A DNA stretch of 35,005 nt, taken from Hyphomicrobiaceae bacterium (lineage in GTDB: Bacteria; Pseudomonadota; Alphaproteobacteria; Rhizobiales; Hyphomicrobiaceae). The stretch's first letter is position 1, and the number at the start of each line of letters is the position of its first letter. The notes beneath the pieces were generated by a model that saw only the letters and a program-made list of their open reading frames with translations, did not search any database and had not been told where the DNA came from. Positions 3,395 through 10,084 of this stretch are shown here, one piece after another. The position numbers and the translations under genes are program-made. Where the stretch lies: contig JAFMSC010000002.1 of NCBI GenBank assembly GCA_017353825.1, positions 1-35,005 of the forward strand. The letters run 5' to 3'.

Positions 3395-4054
3395 TTACAC
3401 GGTTGGCCGCCTCATACTGGCGTGGGCGACCGATCCTATCGCCCAGCCGAGGAGGGCAACGATCAACGGCCACTTGACGTGATCGAAAGCGCCGAACGCA
3501 TAGTAGACCAGGAACTTGAATTCACGCGTGGGCTGCGACATCAGCCCTATCAAGAACTGCACGCCGAAGAGCACGATTGGCGACACTACGAACAGGGTCA
3601 AGTACAGCCTGTGCCTCGCAAAGAAGCTCAATACCGCGACAATTGCGGCTGTGATGGCCAGTAAAGTAAAGTAAAGTAAAGTAAAGTAAAGTAAAGTAAA
3701 GTAAAGTAAAGTAAAGTAAAGTAAAGTAAAGTAAAGTAAAGTAAAGTAAAGTAAAGCGTACCTCGCCGAAGTACTCAGATAAGAACCAGTTCCGAGGAAC
3801 CCGGTCAGCAGCAGGCCCCAGGCGAGGCCAACGAAGAGGAGCGGCGTGTCTTCGATCAAAGGGAAGAGCCGCGTATATCCCAGCGCCAGGAAGGTGAGAA
3901 TCGACAAAGTCGGCCAGGCCGAAAAAAATGCCCCGTGCATCAGCCCCCATGAATGAAACGTCGGCCAGTGCAGCACGCCATACACGTAGCCGAGGGGCCA
4001 CATCAGGAAGAAACCGACAACGGCCGATGTGACCGCTCGAATGACAGTCCGCAT
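3395..4054 (-). CDS. Polytopic membrane protein with an in-frame pentanucleotide repeat tract (candidate phase-variable gene)
   Basis: The product is 219 residues with about five hydrophobic segments. The ATG at 4054 has GGAGAA nine bases upstream. The N-terminal part (MRTVIRAVTSAVVGFFLMWPLGYVYG) and the C-terminal part (HVKWPLIVALLGWAIGSVAHA) both look like membrane helices. Between them, 19 copies of TTTAC (coding strand) encode LLYFT six times plus LL. The 5-base unit is not a multiple of three, so the downstream half stays in frame only when copy number changes by multiples of three. At 19 copies the gene is open to its stop at 3395. One alternative frame stops at 3628-3630, the other at 3522. 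I do not recognise the family. An IS630 relic lies just upstream. A decaying gene with a neutral repeat is the other reading. Confidence 0.6.
   Translation of the reverse strand: MRTVIRAVTSAVVGFFLMWPLGYVYGVLHWPTFHSWGLMHGAFFSAWPTLSILTFLALGYTRLFPLIEDTPLLFVGLAWGLLLTGFLGTGSYLSTSARYALLYFTLLYFTLLYFTLLYFTLLYFTLLYFTLLAITAAIVAVLSFFARHRLYLTLFVVSPIVLFGVQFLIGLMSQPTREFKFLVYYAFGAFDHVKWPLIVALLGWAIGSVAHASMRRPTV
3661..3755. repeat. Pentanucleotide microsatellite, GTAAA x 19
   Basis: Nineteen perfect tandem copies of GTAAA on the plus strand (TTTAC on the coding strand of the membrane protein gene) without a single interruption. All three reading frames of the tract translate to the same FTLLY cycle with no stop, so a copy-number change is only felt downstream. 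Confidence 0.98.
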
Positions 4055-4190
4055 GGCACATTCTCCGCGTGGCGCATTCATGAGCGCGAGGGAAGTGTGC
4101 ATATTGGGCGTTCTGGCGGCAAGAGCGGGCGCGCATCGGCGCGACTTCCGTAGTGGGTCATCAGCAACGGCACCCTCCCAGCACAAGACT

Positions 4191-4454
4191 GCACTAGGCC
4201 CGGTCCACACCAGCAAGGCCACGCTCGCCGCGCTGGCGGCCCGCGCCCATTGGCTCACGGTCGAGTGGCTGCCCAAGTACGCGCCCGAGCTCAATGACAT
4301 CGAGGTGGTCTGGCACGACCTCAAGGCCCACAATCTGGCGCATCAGACGTTCACAGACACGCGCACCCTCGACCAAACCATCCACGCCGCGGTCACCGCC
4401 TTGAACCTGGAGCGAAACCGCGATCTGTTGGGCAACTCACGAATCTCTGCTTAG
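4191..4454 (+). pseudogene. C-terminal fragment of an IS630-family transposase
   Basis: The frame reads GPVHTSKATLAALAAR and then LTVEWLPKYAPELNDIE, followed by VVWHDLKAHNLAHQTF. This is the C-terminal end of the DDE_3 endonuclease of IS630/Tc1-type transposases. The glutamate in LNDIE is the third catalytic acid. The N-terminal DNA-binding domain and the first two aspartates are absent, and the frame runs upstream into unrelated sequence, so this is a truncated relic of about 88 residues ending at the stop at 4452-4454. I could not identify terminal inverted repeats. Confidence 0.8.
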
Positions 4455-4582: not shown

Positions 4583-4631
4583 TGGAGCGGGCGAAGGGAA
4601 TCGAACCCTCGACACTCAGCTTGGGAAGCTG
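4583..4631 (-). tRNA. 3' half of tRNA-Gly(CCC), likely integration-site repeat (att core)
   Basis: On the minus strand the segment runs from the anticodon stem and loop (CAGC, TTCCCAA, GCTG; anticodon CCC) through a variable loop, a complete T arm (GAGGG TTCGATT CCCTT), the 3' acceptor strand CGCCCGC, discriminator T and encoded CCA. The 5' half (acceptor GCGGGCG and D arm) is missing: the sequence before the anticodon stem does not resemble a tRNA. From the anticodon stem onward it looks like ordinary bacterial tRNA-Gly(CCC). A 3' tRNA fragment directly in front of a tyrosine integrase is the classic duplicated att core of an element inserted in a tRNA gene. With this orientation the full tRNA-Gly should lie at the far right end of the element. 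None is in the window. Confidence 0.85.
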
Positions 4632-4676
4632 CGTAAACCGTGCAAAAAGCCCCCGTTTTCCTGGATTTTCGTCACC

Positions 4677-4737: not shown

Positions 4738-5910
4738 TTGGCTATCAGGCGACGCACGTGGACGTGGAAGGGCGAAGAGCGGAGCGCTTGGGTCTGTGAT
4801 TACCTCGACGCGAATGGGAAGCGTCATCTGAAGACGTTCCGGACCAAGGGCGAGGCCATCGACTATGCTGCCGAGACGCGCATTGAGCTCCGCCAGGGCC
4901 TCCATGTCCCCGATCGCGACTCTCTCACCGTCGAGGAAGCCGGCCAGCAATGGCTCACAGCCTGCGAAAACGACGGCCTGGAGCCCGCGACGCTGCAGAC
5001 CTACCGTCAGCATCTGTGCCTGCACATCGCCCCCAGGATCGGCCACAAGCGGCTCAGAGAGCTCACTGTGCCGGTGCTCAGGGCCTTCCAGGACCAGTTG
5101 CGCGCTGATGGCCGGTCGCAGGCTCTGACCAAGAAGACTATCACCTATCTAGGCGGGCTCATTGCCGATGCCCAGGAGCGGGGCTTGGCTGTGCGCAATC
5201 CTGTCCGGGAGCGCAAGCGCAAGAGGAGCCGCGGGAAGGCCGCCAGGCGTCATGAGAAGCGCCTCGAGGTTGGAGTTGATATCCCAACGCCAGAGGAAAT
5301 TCGGGCCATCCTGGGGGCCGCCACAGGCTATAGGCGGGCCTTCTTCATGGTGGCCGCCATGGCCGGCCTGCGCGCCTCCGAGCTGCGTGGGCTGCGATGG
5401 TCGGATGTCAATTTCCCGAAGGCGACGATCACCGTCGCCCAGCGCGCCGACAAGTGGTGCGTGATCGGCAGCCCCAAGGCTCACGCCAGCCAGCGGGAGA
5501 TCCGCGTGGCGCATGAGGTCGTGCTGGCCCTCAAGGAATGGAAGCTTGCCTGCCCGCATGGGAAGCTGGGACTCGTGTTCCCAAACGGCCGGGGCAATGT
5601 GGAGCTGCTTGCCAACATCAGGCGCCGGCATTGGCATCCGCTGCAGATCGCGGCCGGAGTGACCAGGGAGGAGGACGGCGAGACCGTCGCTAAGTACGGC
5701 GGGCTCCATGCGCTGCGGCACTTCTTCTGCTCATGGTGTGCGAACTCGCGCGAGCAAGGCGGGCTCGGCCTTACCCTGAAAGAGACGCAAGTCCGGATGG
5801 GGCACGCGACCCTAAGCCAGACCGCAGACCGATATGGCCATCTGTTTCATGGCGATGGCAAGCGCGAGCAAGAAGTTCTGGCGGCCGGGGCGCGCGCCCT
5901 ATTGGGCTAA
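4738..5910 (+). CDS. int: Tyrosine recombinase / phage-type integrase
   Basis: The product is 390 residues and starts at TTG 4738, with GGGAGG five bases upstream. Residues 15-60 fit the N-terminal arm-binding domain, and about 62-160 the SAM-like core-binding domain (LTVEEAGQQWL, then TYRQHLCLHIAPRIG). Residues 185-385 are the catalytic domain. The active-site set is present: R212 in AGLRASELRGL, probable K247, H324-x-x-R327 in LHALRHFF, H356 in RMGHAT, and the nucleophile Y366 in DRYGHLF. It catalyses site-specific insertion and excision of the element. Its position beside the tRNA-Gly fragment says the tRNA 3' end was the target. All catalytic residues are intact, so the enzyme could still work even though the element looks degraded. 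Confidence 0.95.
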   Translation: MAIRRRTWTWKGEERSAWVCDYLDANGKRHLKTFRTKGEAIDYAAETRIELRQGLHVPDRDSLTVEEAGQQWLTACENDGLEPATLQTYRQHLCLHIAPRIGHKRLRELTVPVLRAFQDQLRADGRSQALTKKTITYLGGLIADAQERGLAVRNPVRERKRKRSRGKAARRHEKRLEVGVDIPTPEEIRAILGAATGYRRAFFMVAAMAGLRASELRGLRWSDVNFPKATITVAQRADKWCVIGSPKAHASQREIRVAHEVVLALKEWKLACPHGKLGLVFPNGRGNVELLANIRRRHWHPLQIAAGVTREEDGETVAKYGGLHALRHFFCSWCANSREQGGLGLTLKETQVRMGHATLSQTADRYGHLFHGDGKREQEVLAAGARALLG

Positions 5911-6707: not shown

Positions 6708-6884
6708 TCATGGCTTGCCCTGCTTGTCCCTGATTTGCATAAGGTGAGTGTTCGCCCAGGCCAGATTGCCATCGATGTTGTCGAGGATTGGTATGAGCCG
6801 GGGATGGACGTAGCCCTGTGCGAAGAAGTTCAGCCACACGCCGATGGCGATCCACCACAGCAGTTTGGTTTGGCGGTCGCTCAC
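6708..6884 (-). CDS. Small single-pass membrane protein, 58 residues
   Basis: It starts at GTG 6884, which shares bases with the stop of the upstream gene (GTGA overlap), so it is probably translationally coupled. The product begins MSDRQTKLLWWIAIG, with a membrane helix at residues 8-23 (LLWWIAIGVWLNFFAQ), then a soluble tail with YVHPRLIPILDNIDGNLAWA. Small anchor-plus-tail proteins of this kind are common in alphaproteobacterial accessory DNA, but I know of no function. It lies between the RHH-like gene and higB, all on the minus strand. Confidence 0.6.
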   Translation of the reverse strand: MSDRQTKLLWWIAIGVWLNFFAQGYVHPRLIPILDNIDGNLAWANTHLMQIRDKQGKP

Positions 6885-7069
6885 TTCCTGGCCCCCTTCG
6901 CCTTCTTCGGATCCGGCATCTTACCCCGCTCAATGGCGTGGCGGAGCACCAGGCGCTCCAGGTAGCTGCTCACCGGCCGGCCGTCCTCTTCGGCGAGCTC
7001 CTTGATTGCCTTCGCGAGGGTCTCGTCGACCCGTGTCGATAGAACCACCAGTCTCTTCTCCTTCGGCAT
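6881..7069 (-). CDS. Small RHH/CopG-like protein
   Basis: The product is 62 residues from the ATG at 7069 (MPKEKRLVVLSTRVDETLAKAIK). A start at 7105 would add twelve residues. The pattern of a beta strand (RLVVLSTRVDE), a helix (LAKAIKELAEEDGR) and a second helix beginning PVSSYLERLVLRHAI matches ribbon-helix-helix DNA-binding proteins. The tail is basic (PKKAKGARK). It is probably a transcriptional regulator of the element, or the antitoxin half of a lost pair. It heads the leftward group and faces the ERF gene across a short divergent region with AT-rich TACATTAT. Confidence 0.65.
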   Translation of the reverse strand: MPKEKRLVVLSTRVDETLAKAIKELAEEDGRPVSSYLERLVLRHAIERGKMPDPKKAKGARK

Positions 7070-7240
7070 GGGCCGCACATAAGCGGCTTCAAGTTGAAAG
7101 AACATGCTTGCCCGCGTCTACTTCCCATGCATAATGTAGACGCTGAGGGTTGGCAAGAGCCAGCCTCAAAACGGGAGCGGGGCCACGCAGTGCTTCACCA
7201 CCGCGCAGCCCCTGGCCCACACAGCGAGAGGAGCCTCGCC

Positions 7241-8173
7241 ATGAAGGTTGATTCGCATAAGGCCTCAAACGGCGACGGGAGGACAACTGCTGTCGCCGTC
7301 CCTCCACGGAAACCGAAACCCGCGGTGCAGATCGCAGCCGCCGTACCGCCCACCACGTTGCTCGGCCGGATCATCGATGTTGCCGGTCGCGCTGATATCG
7401 ACGTGGAGAAGATTAAGCAGCTGGTTGACCTGCACAAGTCGATGCAGGTGGCCGAGTGGCAGCGCCTGTTCAACGAGTCGATGGTCAAGTGCCAGCAGGC
7501 GCTCGACCCAGTGCGCCGCAACAAGTCGAACTCATCCACGAACAGCCGCTACGCCGACCTCGCCCAGCTGGCCGAACAGGCCCTGCCGATCATCCACGCC
7601 CACGGCTTCGCGGTGTCCTTCTCTGAGGCCGAGCCGCGGAAGCCCGACCATATCGGGGTTGCTGTGAGCGTTCGGCACCAGGGCGGCTACACCGAGGTCA
7701 GCACGTGGAACGTGCCGCAGGACCTGTGCGGCCTAAAGGGCCAGGTCAACAAGACGGCCATCCATGGGTGGGGATCGGCGATCACCTACTGTCGCCGATA
7801 TTCCCTGCTGGCGAGCTTCAACATCATTGTATCCGGAGACGACGACGGTCAGGCCGCGGGCGGACAGAAGAGCGCCGCCCAGGCCCGCCGTGATGGCAAG
7901 TGGCCGATCCTGGAAGCCAAGCTGCGCTCGGCCAAGAGCATGAGCGAGCTGCAGGACATCTGGAACGAGTTCCGGTTCGAGATAAAGGCATGGCCTGCCG
8001 CGTGGCGCGACTGCGCCGTGGCGGCCAAAGAGGACGCCAAGACCCGCCTCGGTGGGACAATGACGGCCTTGCACGAGTCGCTACGGCAGCTCGAGCGTCC
8101 CGAGCCCAGGGAGGCTGACATTGAGCAGTGGGGCGGCGCTGAGCCCCGCGTGACCAGGCTGAGAAACGGCTGA
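7241..8173 (+). CDS. ERF-family single-strand annealing protein
   Basis: The product is 310 residues. The ATG at 7241 has GAGAGGAG upstream, and the 49 codons open before it look non-coding. Residues about 75-215 match the ERF superfamily: FNESMVKCQQAL, RYADLAQLAEQALPIIHAHGFAVSF, GGYTEVSTW, then the hallmark KTAIHGWGSAITYCRRYSLLASFNI followed by an acidic GDDDG. ERF proteins, as in phage P22, anneal complementary strands during phage recombination. The C-terminal third is more variable. No partner exonuclease or SSB gene is nearby, so the recombination module is incomplete. A terminator follows immediately. This is the clearest phage gene besides the integrase. Confidence 0.88.
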   Translation: MKVDSHKASNGDGRTTAVAVPPRKPKPAVQIAAAVPPTTLLGRIIDVAGRADIDVEKIKQLVDLHKSMQVAEWQRLFNESMVKCQQALDPVRRNKSNSSTNSRYADLAQLAEQALPIIHAHGFAVSFSEAEPRKPDHIGVAVSVRHQGGYTEVSTWNVPQDLCGLKGQVNKTAIHGWGSAITYCRRYSLLASFNIIVSGDDDGQAAGGQKSAAQARRDGKWPILEAKLRSAKSMSELQDIWNEFRFEIKAWPAAWRDCAVAAKEDAKTRLGGTMTALHESLRQLERPEPREADIEQWGGAEPRVTRLRNG

Positions 8174-8184
8174 GGTTTTCAACC

Positions 8185-8211
8185 GGCTGGTCATCTATGG
8201 CCAGCCCTTTT
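8185..8211 (+). terminator. Rho-independent terminator after the ERF gene
   Basis: GGCTGGTCA pairs with TGGCCAGCC (one G-T pair) around a 4-base TCTA loop, followed by CTTTT. It lies 11 bases after the ERF stop and before the next ribosome site. Confidence 0.8.
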
Positions 8212-8227
8212 CATTGGAGAAGACGAC

Positions 8228-8470
8228 ATGTTTGACAAACACAAACTGGACGACCTGCCCCCGCCACACCTGCTTCGCATCCCCATAGACGCCGCGACCG
8301 CGCTGGTGAGCACCATCATCTCCGAGCTCCCGCACATGCCGGCCAGCGTCCGTGCCGAGCTGCTCACGTTCACGGCCGACCCCACGGTGTGGAATGCCGG
8401 CAGGCTCATCAACGCACTGCGCTATGCAGGGCATCCAGGGTTGGCGCGAGAAGTGGAGGATGTTCTGTGA
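8228..8470 (+). CDS. Hypothetical phage-type protein, 80 residues
   Basis: The ATG at 8228 follows TTGGAGAAGACGAC, a good ribosome site. The product (MFDKHKLDDLPPPHLLRIPID, ending REVEDVL) is acidic and helical with no motif that I recognise. It is the first of five small genes that overlap or abut each other, its stop overlapping the next start. The set resembles the small accessory genes of phage early regions. Confidence 0.65.
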   Translation: MFDKHKLDDLPPPHLLRIPIDAATALVSTIISELPHMPASVRAELLTFTADPTVWNAGRLINALRYAGHPGLAREVEDVL

Positions 8471-8592
8471 TGGGGAGCCTGTTCGGATATTTCGCCACCT
8501 GGGGATATTTCGGGTTCTGGCGATGGCTGGCTGCGGCGGCGATCTTCCTGGCCGTCGTGACCGTGTGGAGCTGGCTTGGGAGGCGCTCATGA
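8470..8592 (+). CDS. Very small membrane protein, 40 residues
   Basis: It starts at ATG 8470, sharing one base with the preceding TGA. The product begins MGSLFGYFATWGYFGFWRW and continues into the helix LAAAAIFLAVVTVWSWLG, so it is a single-pass membrane peptide with a very aromatic N-terminus. The stop overlaps the next start (ATGA at 8589). Tight overlaps on both sides support translation; no function can be assigned. Confidence 0.5.
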   Translation: MGSLFGYFATWGYFGFWRWLAAAAIFLAVVTVWSWLGRRS

Positions 8593-8780
8593 ACCTCGCC
8601 AACCGCATCACCGCGCTGCTGTGCTCGCTGACGACATTGCAAATCCGCGCCATGTCACCCGTGGACAAGCAACAGCTCTGCAACGAGTGCCTTCCCGTCT
8701 TGCAGGCGGCCATGCCGCCTCAGGCGCAGATCAAGGCCGGTGTGCTCTACGAACTCAAGCGGGGGGATCGCCCACAATGA
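8589..8780 (+). CDS. Hypothetical small protein, 63 residues
   Basis: It starts at ATG 8589 within a four-base overlap and ends in another (ATGA at 8777). The product begins MNLANRITALLCSLTTLQIRAMS and is mostly helical, with two cysteines at its centre (QLCNECL). There is no recognised family. It is placed in the element because of the unbroken chain of overlaps. Confidence 0.5.
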   Translation: MNLANRITALLCSLTTLQIRAMSPVDKQQLCNECLPVLQAAMPPQAQIKAGVLYELKRGDRPQ

Positions 8781-9043
8781 ACAGCACCATCAACTTCATC
8801 CGCGGGGTGTTCCACTGGATCGCCCTGACAGCTTTCTGGGGCTGGAACGCCGTCATGGCCTATCTTGGCTATGTGACCTGGGCGGCACTCCACGAGACGC
8901 CGCCCGAGTTCAGCCATACGGCCACAGCGCGCGCCGGCTACGACGCTGGCGTGACCTTCGGGATGTTCGCCATCCTGCTCCTCTGGGCGCTCGTCGCCGG
9001 CATCCTCTACATGATCGCGGCCAGCACTCGGAGGGCGCCGTGA
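8777..9043 (+). CDS. Two-pass membrane protein, 88 residues
   Basis: It starts at ATG 8777 in a four-base overlap. Two membrane helices are visible: residues about 10-38 (VFHWIALTAFWGWNAVMAYLG and on) and 62-82 (FGMFAILLLWALVAGILYMIA), joined by a polar loop with PPEFSHTATARAGYDAG. This arrangement resembles small alphaproteobacterial phage and island membrane proteins. The role is unknown. The stop overlaps the next start (GTGA at 9040). Confidence 0.6.
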   Translation: MNSTINFIRGVFHWIALTAFWGWNAVMAYLGYVTWAALHETPPEFSHTATARAGYDAGVTFGMFAILLLWALVAGILYMIAASTRRAP

Positions 9044-9162
9044 CCAAGCTGCTCATCGTGCTCGCAGCCGGCGCCTTGCTGCTGGCCCTGGTTAGTCCAG
9101 GGCCAGCAAGCCGGCCTAAGGTCCCGCGGTCATCGCCGCCGGGCCTGGTGCTGATCGCTTAA
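9040..9162 (+). CDS. Very small membrane or secreted peptide, 40 residues
   Basis: It starts at GTG 9040 in a GTGA overlap with the preceding stop. The product is MTKLLIVLAAGALLLALVSPG followed by a short proline-rich basic tail. The N-terminus could be a signal peptide or a membrane anchor. Support comes only from coupling and hydrophobicity. Confidence 0.42.
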   Translation: MTKLLIVLAAGALLLALVSPGPASRPKVPRSSPPGLVLIA

Positions 9163-9187: not shown

Positions 9188-9545
9188 ATGTCCAAACTCG
9201 CATATGCCATCGTGCTCGCGTGCTGCCTCGCTACAGAGGCGCACGCCTTTGATGATGAGGCTTTCTGCCGGGCGTTCCAGGTCGAGGCTGTGAAAATCAA
9301 CCGCGACATCGGCACCAGGGTCGATAACATCACGGTGCTCGACGGGCTGGGTTCGCGCCTACGGCACGGCGCTCGGGGTCGTGCTCGACGGGCAGGTGGA
9401 AATCCGGCCGGGCCCACCCCCAGCTGCCGAGCACGCGGACATGCGCCCTGGTCCGGTCTTCGGCCTGCGTCCGCGCGGGCGGAAGTCCGATACGGGGATC
9501 GGCGAAAGCATCGGCCGCGCGTTCGGGGCGAGGAGGGCGCCATGA
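9188..9545 (+). pseudogene. Secreted protein gene, probably frameshifted
   Basis: GTAGGGGAA precedes the ATG at 9188. The first 54 residues are a good secreted protein: a signal peptide (MSKLAYAIVLACCLATEAHA) and then FDDEAFCRAFQVEAVKINRD and a segment ending NITVLDGL. Near 9345 this frame turns into arginine- and glycine-rich nonsense. The next frame reads sensibly from about 9345 (GWVRAYGTALGVVLDGQVEI onward) to the stop at 9543-9545 but has no start of its own. A lost or gained base around 9340-9350 would join the two. Alternatively the second frame is a separate gene with an unseen start. Confidence 0.4.
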
Positions 9546-9822
9546 GAAAAGGCCTAATTATTACGGGTTTCTCGCCCTCGCCGGCTGCATGAGCACCGAT
9601 GAGCAAATCGCCGCGAGCGCTCGCGAGGCGCTCGGGCCGAAGGTCGTCGCAGACTTCTGCGCGATGCCCGAGCAACAGAAGCTGGCCTATCTCACCAAGC
9701 GCCTGCGCTTCAGCGAGGGAAGTGCCGTGAACGTCGGCGGCCGTTGGTACGACTCGACCGTGGTGACCAGCCGCGAGCTGGCCGCGGAACGGGTGACGTG
9801 GCGTAGGAATCTAGGCTGTTGA
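9542..9822 (+). pseudogene. Small lipoprotein gene with a one-base frameshift in the lipobox region
   Basis: The ATG at 9542 overlaps the preceding stop and reads MRKGLIITGF, then runs into a premature stop at 9590. Moving one base near 9570 gives a standard lipoprotein signal ending in LALAGC, followed by MSTDEQIAASAREALG and 70 more residues to the stop at 9820-9822. A missing T in the TTT before CTCGCC would explain this. The downstream part could still be translated from its own ATG at 9589, but the product would lack its membrane signal. The function is unknown. Confidence 0.6.
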
Positions 9823-9858
9823 GCTTCGAGGGCGCTTCCCCGCACCGGCGCCCCTGAG

Positions 9859-9895
9859 ACGCCGCCACCTGCTCCCCTGGGTGGCGGCGTTTTCG
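9859..9895 (+). terminator. Strong Rho-independent terminator at the end of the element genes
   Basis: An 11-base perfect stem (ACGCCGCCACC with GGTGGCGGCGT) with a 10-base loop, followed by TTTCGTT. It closes the rightward small-gene group 36 bases after the last stop. Confidence 0.88.
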
Positions 9896-9939
9896 TTCGA
9901 GAACCTGACCTGCACCGGGCAGGCCTCGAGCTGGACTGA

Positions 9940-10007: not shown

Positions 10008-10084
10008 TGGTCGGGGCAGAGGGATTCGAACCCCCGGCCCCCTGCTCCCAAAGCAGGTGCTCTACCAGGCTGAGCTATGCCCCG
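10008..10084 (-). tRNA. tRNA-Pro(UGG)
   Basis: Complete cloverleaf on the minus strand: acceptor CGGGGCA with TGCCCCG, D arm TAGCTCAGCCTGGTAGAGC, anticodon arm CCTGC TTTGGGA GCAGG (anticodon TGG), T arm CGGGG GTTCGAAT CCC, discriminator A and encoded CCA at 10008-10010. Confidence 0.97.

Follow-up and report, generated by a model that had tools for sequence, protein, structure and literature searches.

Five chained small genes, probably accessory genes in a phage-type operon led by ERF, from a Hyphomicrobiaceae bacterium

The window analyzed here is a stretch of 35,005 nucleotides from a Hyphomicrobiaceae bacterium (assembly GCA_017353825.1, contig JAFMSC010000002.1, positions 1 to 35,005). 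The genome bin to which it belongs comprises 639 contigs, with a completeness of 84% and a contamination of 2.6%. Five small open reading frames, here ORF1 to ORF5, follow a gene for an ERF single-strand annealing protein within an element that has an integrase at one end. The features of the element are as follows, in order along the window.

4583 to 4632, minus strand: 3' part of a tRNA-Gly(CCC), an att-like half site that marks the element's integrase end; contig C122 carries the intact gene, with an identical 3' part
4738 to 5910, plus strand: tyrosine integrase (Pfam Phage_integrase, 4.7e-14; phrog_1, 1.9e-55)
6881 to 7105, minus strand: small ribbon-helix-helix (RHH; Arc/CopG-like) protein, a candidate repressor divergent from the operon (sub-threshold matches)
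7108 to 7145, plus strand: candidate promoter TTGCCC-16-CATAAT over an inverted repeat, a candidate operator (promoter scan and inverted-repeat search)
7241 to 8173, plus strand: ERF single-strand annealing protein, encoded by the operon's first gene (Pfam ERF, 2.6e-15; phrog_155, 5.8e-30)
8185 to 8206, plus strand: terminator-like hairpin between ERF and ORF1 (9-bp stem, then CTTTT)
8228 to 8470, plus strand: ORF1, 80 amino acids, soluble helical protein
8470 to 8592, plus strand: ORF2, 40 amino acids, peptide with one transmembrane (TM) segment, an exchanged cassette
8589 to 8780, plus strand: ORF3, 63 amino acids, soluble protein with the C-terminal end GVLxxLxRG
8777 to 9043, plus strand: ORF4, 88 amino acids, protein with two TM segments
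9040 to 9162, plus strand: ORF5, 40 amino acids, GTG start, one TM segment and a Pro-rich tail
9188 to 9822, plus strand: mosaic stretch with a truncated secreted-protein gene, a C-terminal piece of the C622 113-amino-acid gene and a 77-amino-acid ORF (9589 to 9822)
9856 to 9893, plus strand: operon terminator hairpin (stem-loop), with TTTTCGTT at its 3' side

A sequence-only reading of this DNA had described a chain of five overlapping ORFs at 8228 to 9162, and we confirmed that all five frames are open on the plus strand with the lengths it gave (80, 40, 63, 88 and 40 amino acids). The overlaps, described as one to four bases, are indeed -1 or -4 nucleotides at the junctions TGATG, ATGA, ATGA and GTGA. 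The claim of three membrane peptides likewise agrees with a 19-residue hydrophobic stretch in each of ORF2, ORF4 and ORF5 (Kyte-Doolittle maxima of 1.9, 2.5 and 2.3, respectively). Each of the five starts has a partial Shine-Dalgarno match. The five linked genes are confirmed as a chain; the operon is larger, however, since its first gene is the ERF recombinase at 7241.

Tight coupling had been offered as a strong sign of translation, but taken alone it is a weak one here. We counted chains of at least five ORFs, each of at least 38 amino acids and linked by -1 or -4 junctions, in dinucleotide shuffles. The local 1.1 kb gave such chains in 3 of 1000 shuffles; the whole window, because its DNA is GC-rich, gave them in 28 of 60. 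Coding scores are low for ORF2 (8.7 bits) and ORF5 (7.6 bits). The case for real genes rests on conservation, as overlaps alone are weak evidence.

Comparison with related loci on other contigs showed that purifying selection acts on ORF1, ORF3 and ORF5, in which nonsynonymous changes are far fewer than the neutral expectation. Between the window and C622, dN/dS is 0.055 for ORF1 and 0.036 for ORF3 (p about 2e-7 for each), and 0.052 for ERF. For ORF5, compared with the C189 copy, to which it is 78% identical, dN/dS is 0.175 (p = 2e-4); C622 has a copy too. Loss of the frames or ratios like those of noncoding DNA had been named as what would refute the genes; instead, the frames are kept in related loci, with dN/dS far below 1 for these three.

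ORF4 has distant homologues with open frames in two other genomes, G055 (1.1e-6) and G014 (2.5e-5). The G014 homologue belongs to a prophage, where it lies upstream of terminase genes, in keeping with a phage-type origin. Both homologues resemble DUF4064 at scores below the family cut-off. No other copy of ORF4 was found in the window's own genome bin, and a match in G051 (E = 0.008) was discarded.

The bin holds eight ORF3-family loci (seven besides the window) and five ORF1-family loci; all copies come from this one bin, in which short contigs may derive from other strains or free phages. In the closest relatives, C622 and C189, the order is ERF recombinase, ORF1, membrane peptide, ORF3 and, further on, ORF5. 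The gene content of the related loci is as follows.

C622: ERF, ORF1, 41-amino-acid TM peptide, ORF3, 48-amino-acid TM peptide, 113-amino-acid ORF, 54-amino-acid ORF, ORF5
C189: ERF, ORF1, 65-amino-acid TM protein, ORF3, ORF5
C534: ORF1, 41-amino-acid TM peptide, ORF3-like
C110: ORF1, ORF3
C353, C272 and C436: ORF3-like alone

Junctions at these loci are -1, -4 or -8 nucleotides, spacings that are enriched among closely spaced or overlapping codirectional gene pairs (PMC12548453). Two 121-amino-acid ORF3 relatives (L040:3344-3709 and L041:2384-2749) look like two tandem ORF3-like units, an internal duplication.

Outside the bin, ORF3 relatives are nearly absent across about 800 related genomes, among the matches listed. 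Among 397 other genomes from the order, a three-row profile found none. One relative (G065) was found in 148 close-relative genomes and one doubtful match in 326 genomes of the class, in each case among matches listed, where weak relatives may be missed. A match in G600 was discarded, as it overlaps another gene and has a poor frame. Phages and plasmids searched with the ORF3 relatives gave no match, and viral contigs scanned with ORF1, ORF3, ORF4, ERF and paralogue queries gave no relatives. A conserved ERF stretch, searched against genome contigs, found only three distant ERFs, all lacking the chain of small genes. The same gene order, for which a search in other prophages and islands had been proposed, recurs with its junctions at loci of the same bin.

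Family searches placed none of the five small proteins. ORF1 to ORF5 gave nothing significant against Pfam, PHROGs or PADLOC, whose models of known anti-phage defense proteins match none of them, and the ORF3 family gave nothing significant against NCBIfam. A single-sequence AlphaFold model of ORF1 has four helices (pLDDT 70) and no match in the PDB below an E value of 1; that of ORF3 has two helices (pLDDT 57) and is too poor for use.

ORF2 differs from its neighbors. Nucleotide identity between the window and C622 is 96% for ERF, 92% for ORF1 and 92% for ORF3, but 50% for ORF2, and the borders of the replaced segment coincide with gene boundaries. ORF2 was probably replaced through recombination rather than diversified in place, because dS (0.86) and dN (0.78) are both raised, against a dS of 0.13 to 0.39 in the flanks; divergence through selection alone was set aside, as it leaves the raised dS unaccounted for. 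A TM peptide also occupies this slot in C622, C189 and C534. The window and C622 peptides are still related, with a local score of 60 that was reached by 0 of 2000 shuffles. Selection lends no support to ORF2 as a gene, whose status rests on position, junctions, coding score and this weak but significant peptide match.

Several signals could control the operon. The inverted repeat GCGTCTAC-N14-GTAGACGC encloses the -10 element of the sole sigma-70-like promoter found. The divergent gene at 6881 to 7105 has weak, sub-threshold RHH matches (NikA-like, 1.7e-4; RHH_1, 0.008; PHROG Arc-like repressor, 8e-4), and this gene and the palindromic promoter are each weak alone as a sign of phage-type repressor control. 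The same element also contains, again divergent from ERF, a membrane ORF of 58 amino acids and genes for a HigB toxin and an HTH antitoxin. At all five ORF1 loci (the window, C622, C189, C534 and C110), ORF1 is preceded by a GC-rich hairpin with T-rich DNA after it; in C534 and C110, no other gene separates this hairpin from the divergent regulator. We regard the hairpin as a candidate attenuator. The sequence directly 3' of ORF5 in C189 and C622, which contains strong hairpins, reappears in the window at 9820 to 9896, past the mosaic insert; the operon therefore ends near there.

The integrase and the tRNA-Gly half site mark an integrated, phage-type element, which is classed as phage-derived rather than a complete phage because no structural phage genes were recognized in it or on contig C622. 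The 5' half of the tRNA-Gly(CCC) is absent at 4583 to 4632, and a second att end of the element was not found within the window. The stretch from 9188 to 9545 is a mosaic of broken genes, within which 9350 to 9545 is 91% identical to C622:3754-3949 only. With its far end missing and 9188 to 9545 scrambled, the element may be a dead remnant.

Opposite the tRNA-Gly(CCC) 3' half, the element is bounded by a complete tRNA-Pro(TGG) at 10008 to 10084, with its 3' end facing the element. As att partners, this tRNA and the tRNA-Gly half are mismatched, which suggests a deletion, a second insertion or misassembly. Related elements seem to occupy different tRNAs, because in C189 about 450 bp separate the end of the operon copy from the 3' end of a tRNA whose sequence points to tRNA-Ser (L008:1-75). 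Just beyond the tRNA-Gly half site is a DDE_3 transposase fragment (4095 to 4454). Further out, a perfect (AGTAA)n pentamer array of about 19 units (3660 to 3757) lies in a minus-strand membrane-protein frame with LLYFTLLYFT repeats, possibly a phase-variable or assembly-affected locus.

Taken together, these comparisons make it likely that ORF1 to ORF5 are genuine genes that are translated and serve as accessories in a phage-type operon led by ERF. We infer that they make up the distal portion of an early operon in an element derived from a temperate phage; the element has a phage recombination gene (ERF), an integrase and a tRNA attachment half site. The divergent Arc/CopG-like protein, a candidate repressor, would bind the palindrome over the promoter at 7108 to 7145. 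Once repression was lifted, ERF would be made first, and the hairpin upstream of ORF1 would lower or control read-through. The five small genes could then be made in a fixed ratio via termination-reinitiation at the overlapping codons. ORF1 and ORF3 would form a conserved soluble (cytoplasmic) core of accessory proteins, and ORF2, ORF4 and ORF5 are predicted to be placed in the inner membrane.

Our best guess at what these proteins do is a tentative one. They may act early on the host, aiding recombination by ERF, with membrane peptides that alter the envelope, for instance so that superinfecting relatives are kept out. The slot of ORF2, whose content has been exchanged between near-identical elements, could be the specificity determinant, e.g., for superinfection exclusion. 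A more far-reaching proposal, which we consider unlikely, is that ORF1, the TM peptide and ORF3 make up a new self-contained micro-operon on several mobile elements of one lineage. Here, two conserved cytoplasmic proteins would work together with a membrane peptide that can be exchanged. Controlled by an Arc-like repressor and a leader hairpin, they would decide which related elements enter or stay.

The main rival reading, which we hold to be rather doubtful, is a module for regulation or stability. In it, ORF3 (with ORF1) and the small DNA-binding protein would be a control pair that recurs in the genome independently of phage, and the TM peptide would be toxin-like or signaling. Of the eight places with ORF3 relatives, six also have a divergent small RHH-like gene alongside (the window, C189, C110, C353, C272 and C534), and the relatives recur without ERF. 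At three loci an ORF3 relative stands without ERF or ORF1, so ORF3 is not tied to recombination, which counts against the ERF-led reading. In G065, the relative (L042:1237-1719) is the C-terminal part of a protein with an HTH-like N terminus; its coding score is low and its frame partly overlaps a minus-strand ORF. However, the RHH assignment is weak for most of the divergent genes, with Pfam detecting the domain weakly in two and not in four of the equivalent genes. In addition, the genes are divergent, unlike the codirectional genes of typical type II toxin-antitoxin operons. Toxin families gave no match, and for ORF1 and ORF3, considered as a type II toxin-antitoxin pair, nothing matched in Pfam, PHROGs or, for the ORF3 family, NCBIfam.

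Several small TM proteins in succession could instead suggest a lysis cassette, with ORF4 and its two TM segments in the role of holin or antiholin and with ORF2 and ORF5 as peptides akin to holins or spanins, and the G014 relative of ORF4 does lie upstream of terminase genes. We nevertheless judge this improbable. Nothing between 4738 and 9822 in the element codes for an endolysin, Pfam and PHROGs gave no match to a holin or spanin family, and the genes are linked to ERF rather than to late genes. Moreover, ORF1 and ORF3 are soluble and are present without ORF4 and ORF5 in C534 and C110. That the ORFs are spurious frames in GC-rich DNA, as chains equally long in about half of the shuffled windows and the low coding scores of ORF2 and ORF5 might imply, is extremely unlikely, being refuted by strong purifying selection for ORF1, ORF3 and ORF5 and opposed by the recurrence of order and junctions at other loci and by the homologues of ORF4.

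For the accessory genes of the ERF-led operon, conservation evidence is now given for several small proteins that are absent from every family library searched. The approach shows a way to tell real chained micro-genes from the chance chains that abound in GC-rich DNA. The pair of almost identical operons, set apart by a single membrane peptide of 40 codons, is also a natural experiment on the role of that peptide.

The first gene of the operon is a member of the PHROG and Pfam ERF family, and the five small genes stand outside it. In Salmonella phage P22, Erf works with the small proteins Abc1, Abc2 and Arf (PMC9836394). The P22 recombination region resembles this operon in combining an ERF-type annealing protein with very small accessory proteins; unlike it, this operon has several membrane peptides among the predicted partners and one slot that has undergone exchange, and no sequence match was found. 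Superinfection exclusion proteins of temperate phages, such as SieA of P22, are located in the inner membrane, and their genes are usually expressed from the prophage. The peptides described here are similarly predicted to be inner-membrane proteins of a temperate element and would act on the host envelope. They differ from SieA-type proteins in that no homology was found and in that their genes lie behind a recombinase, in an operon predicted to be repressed.
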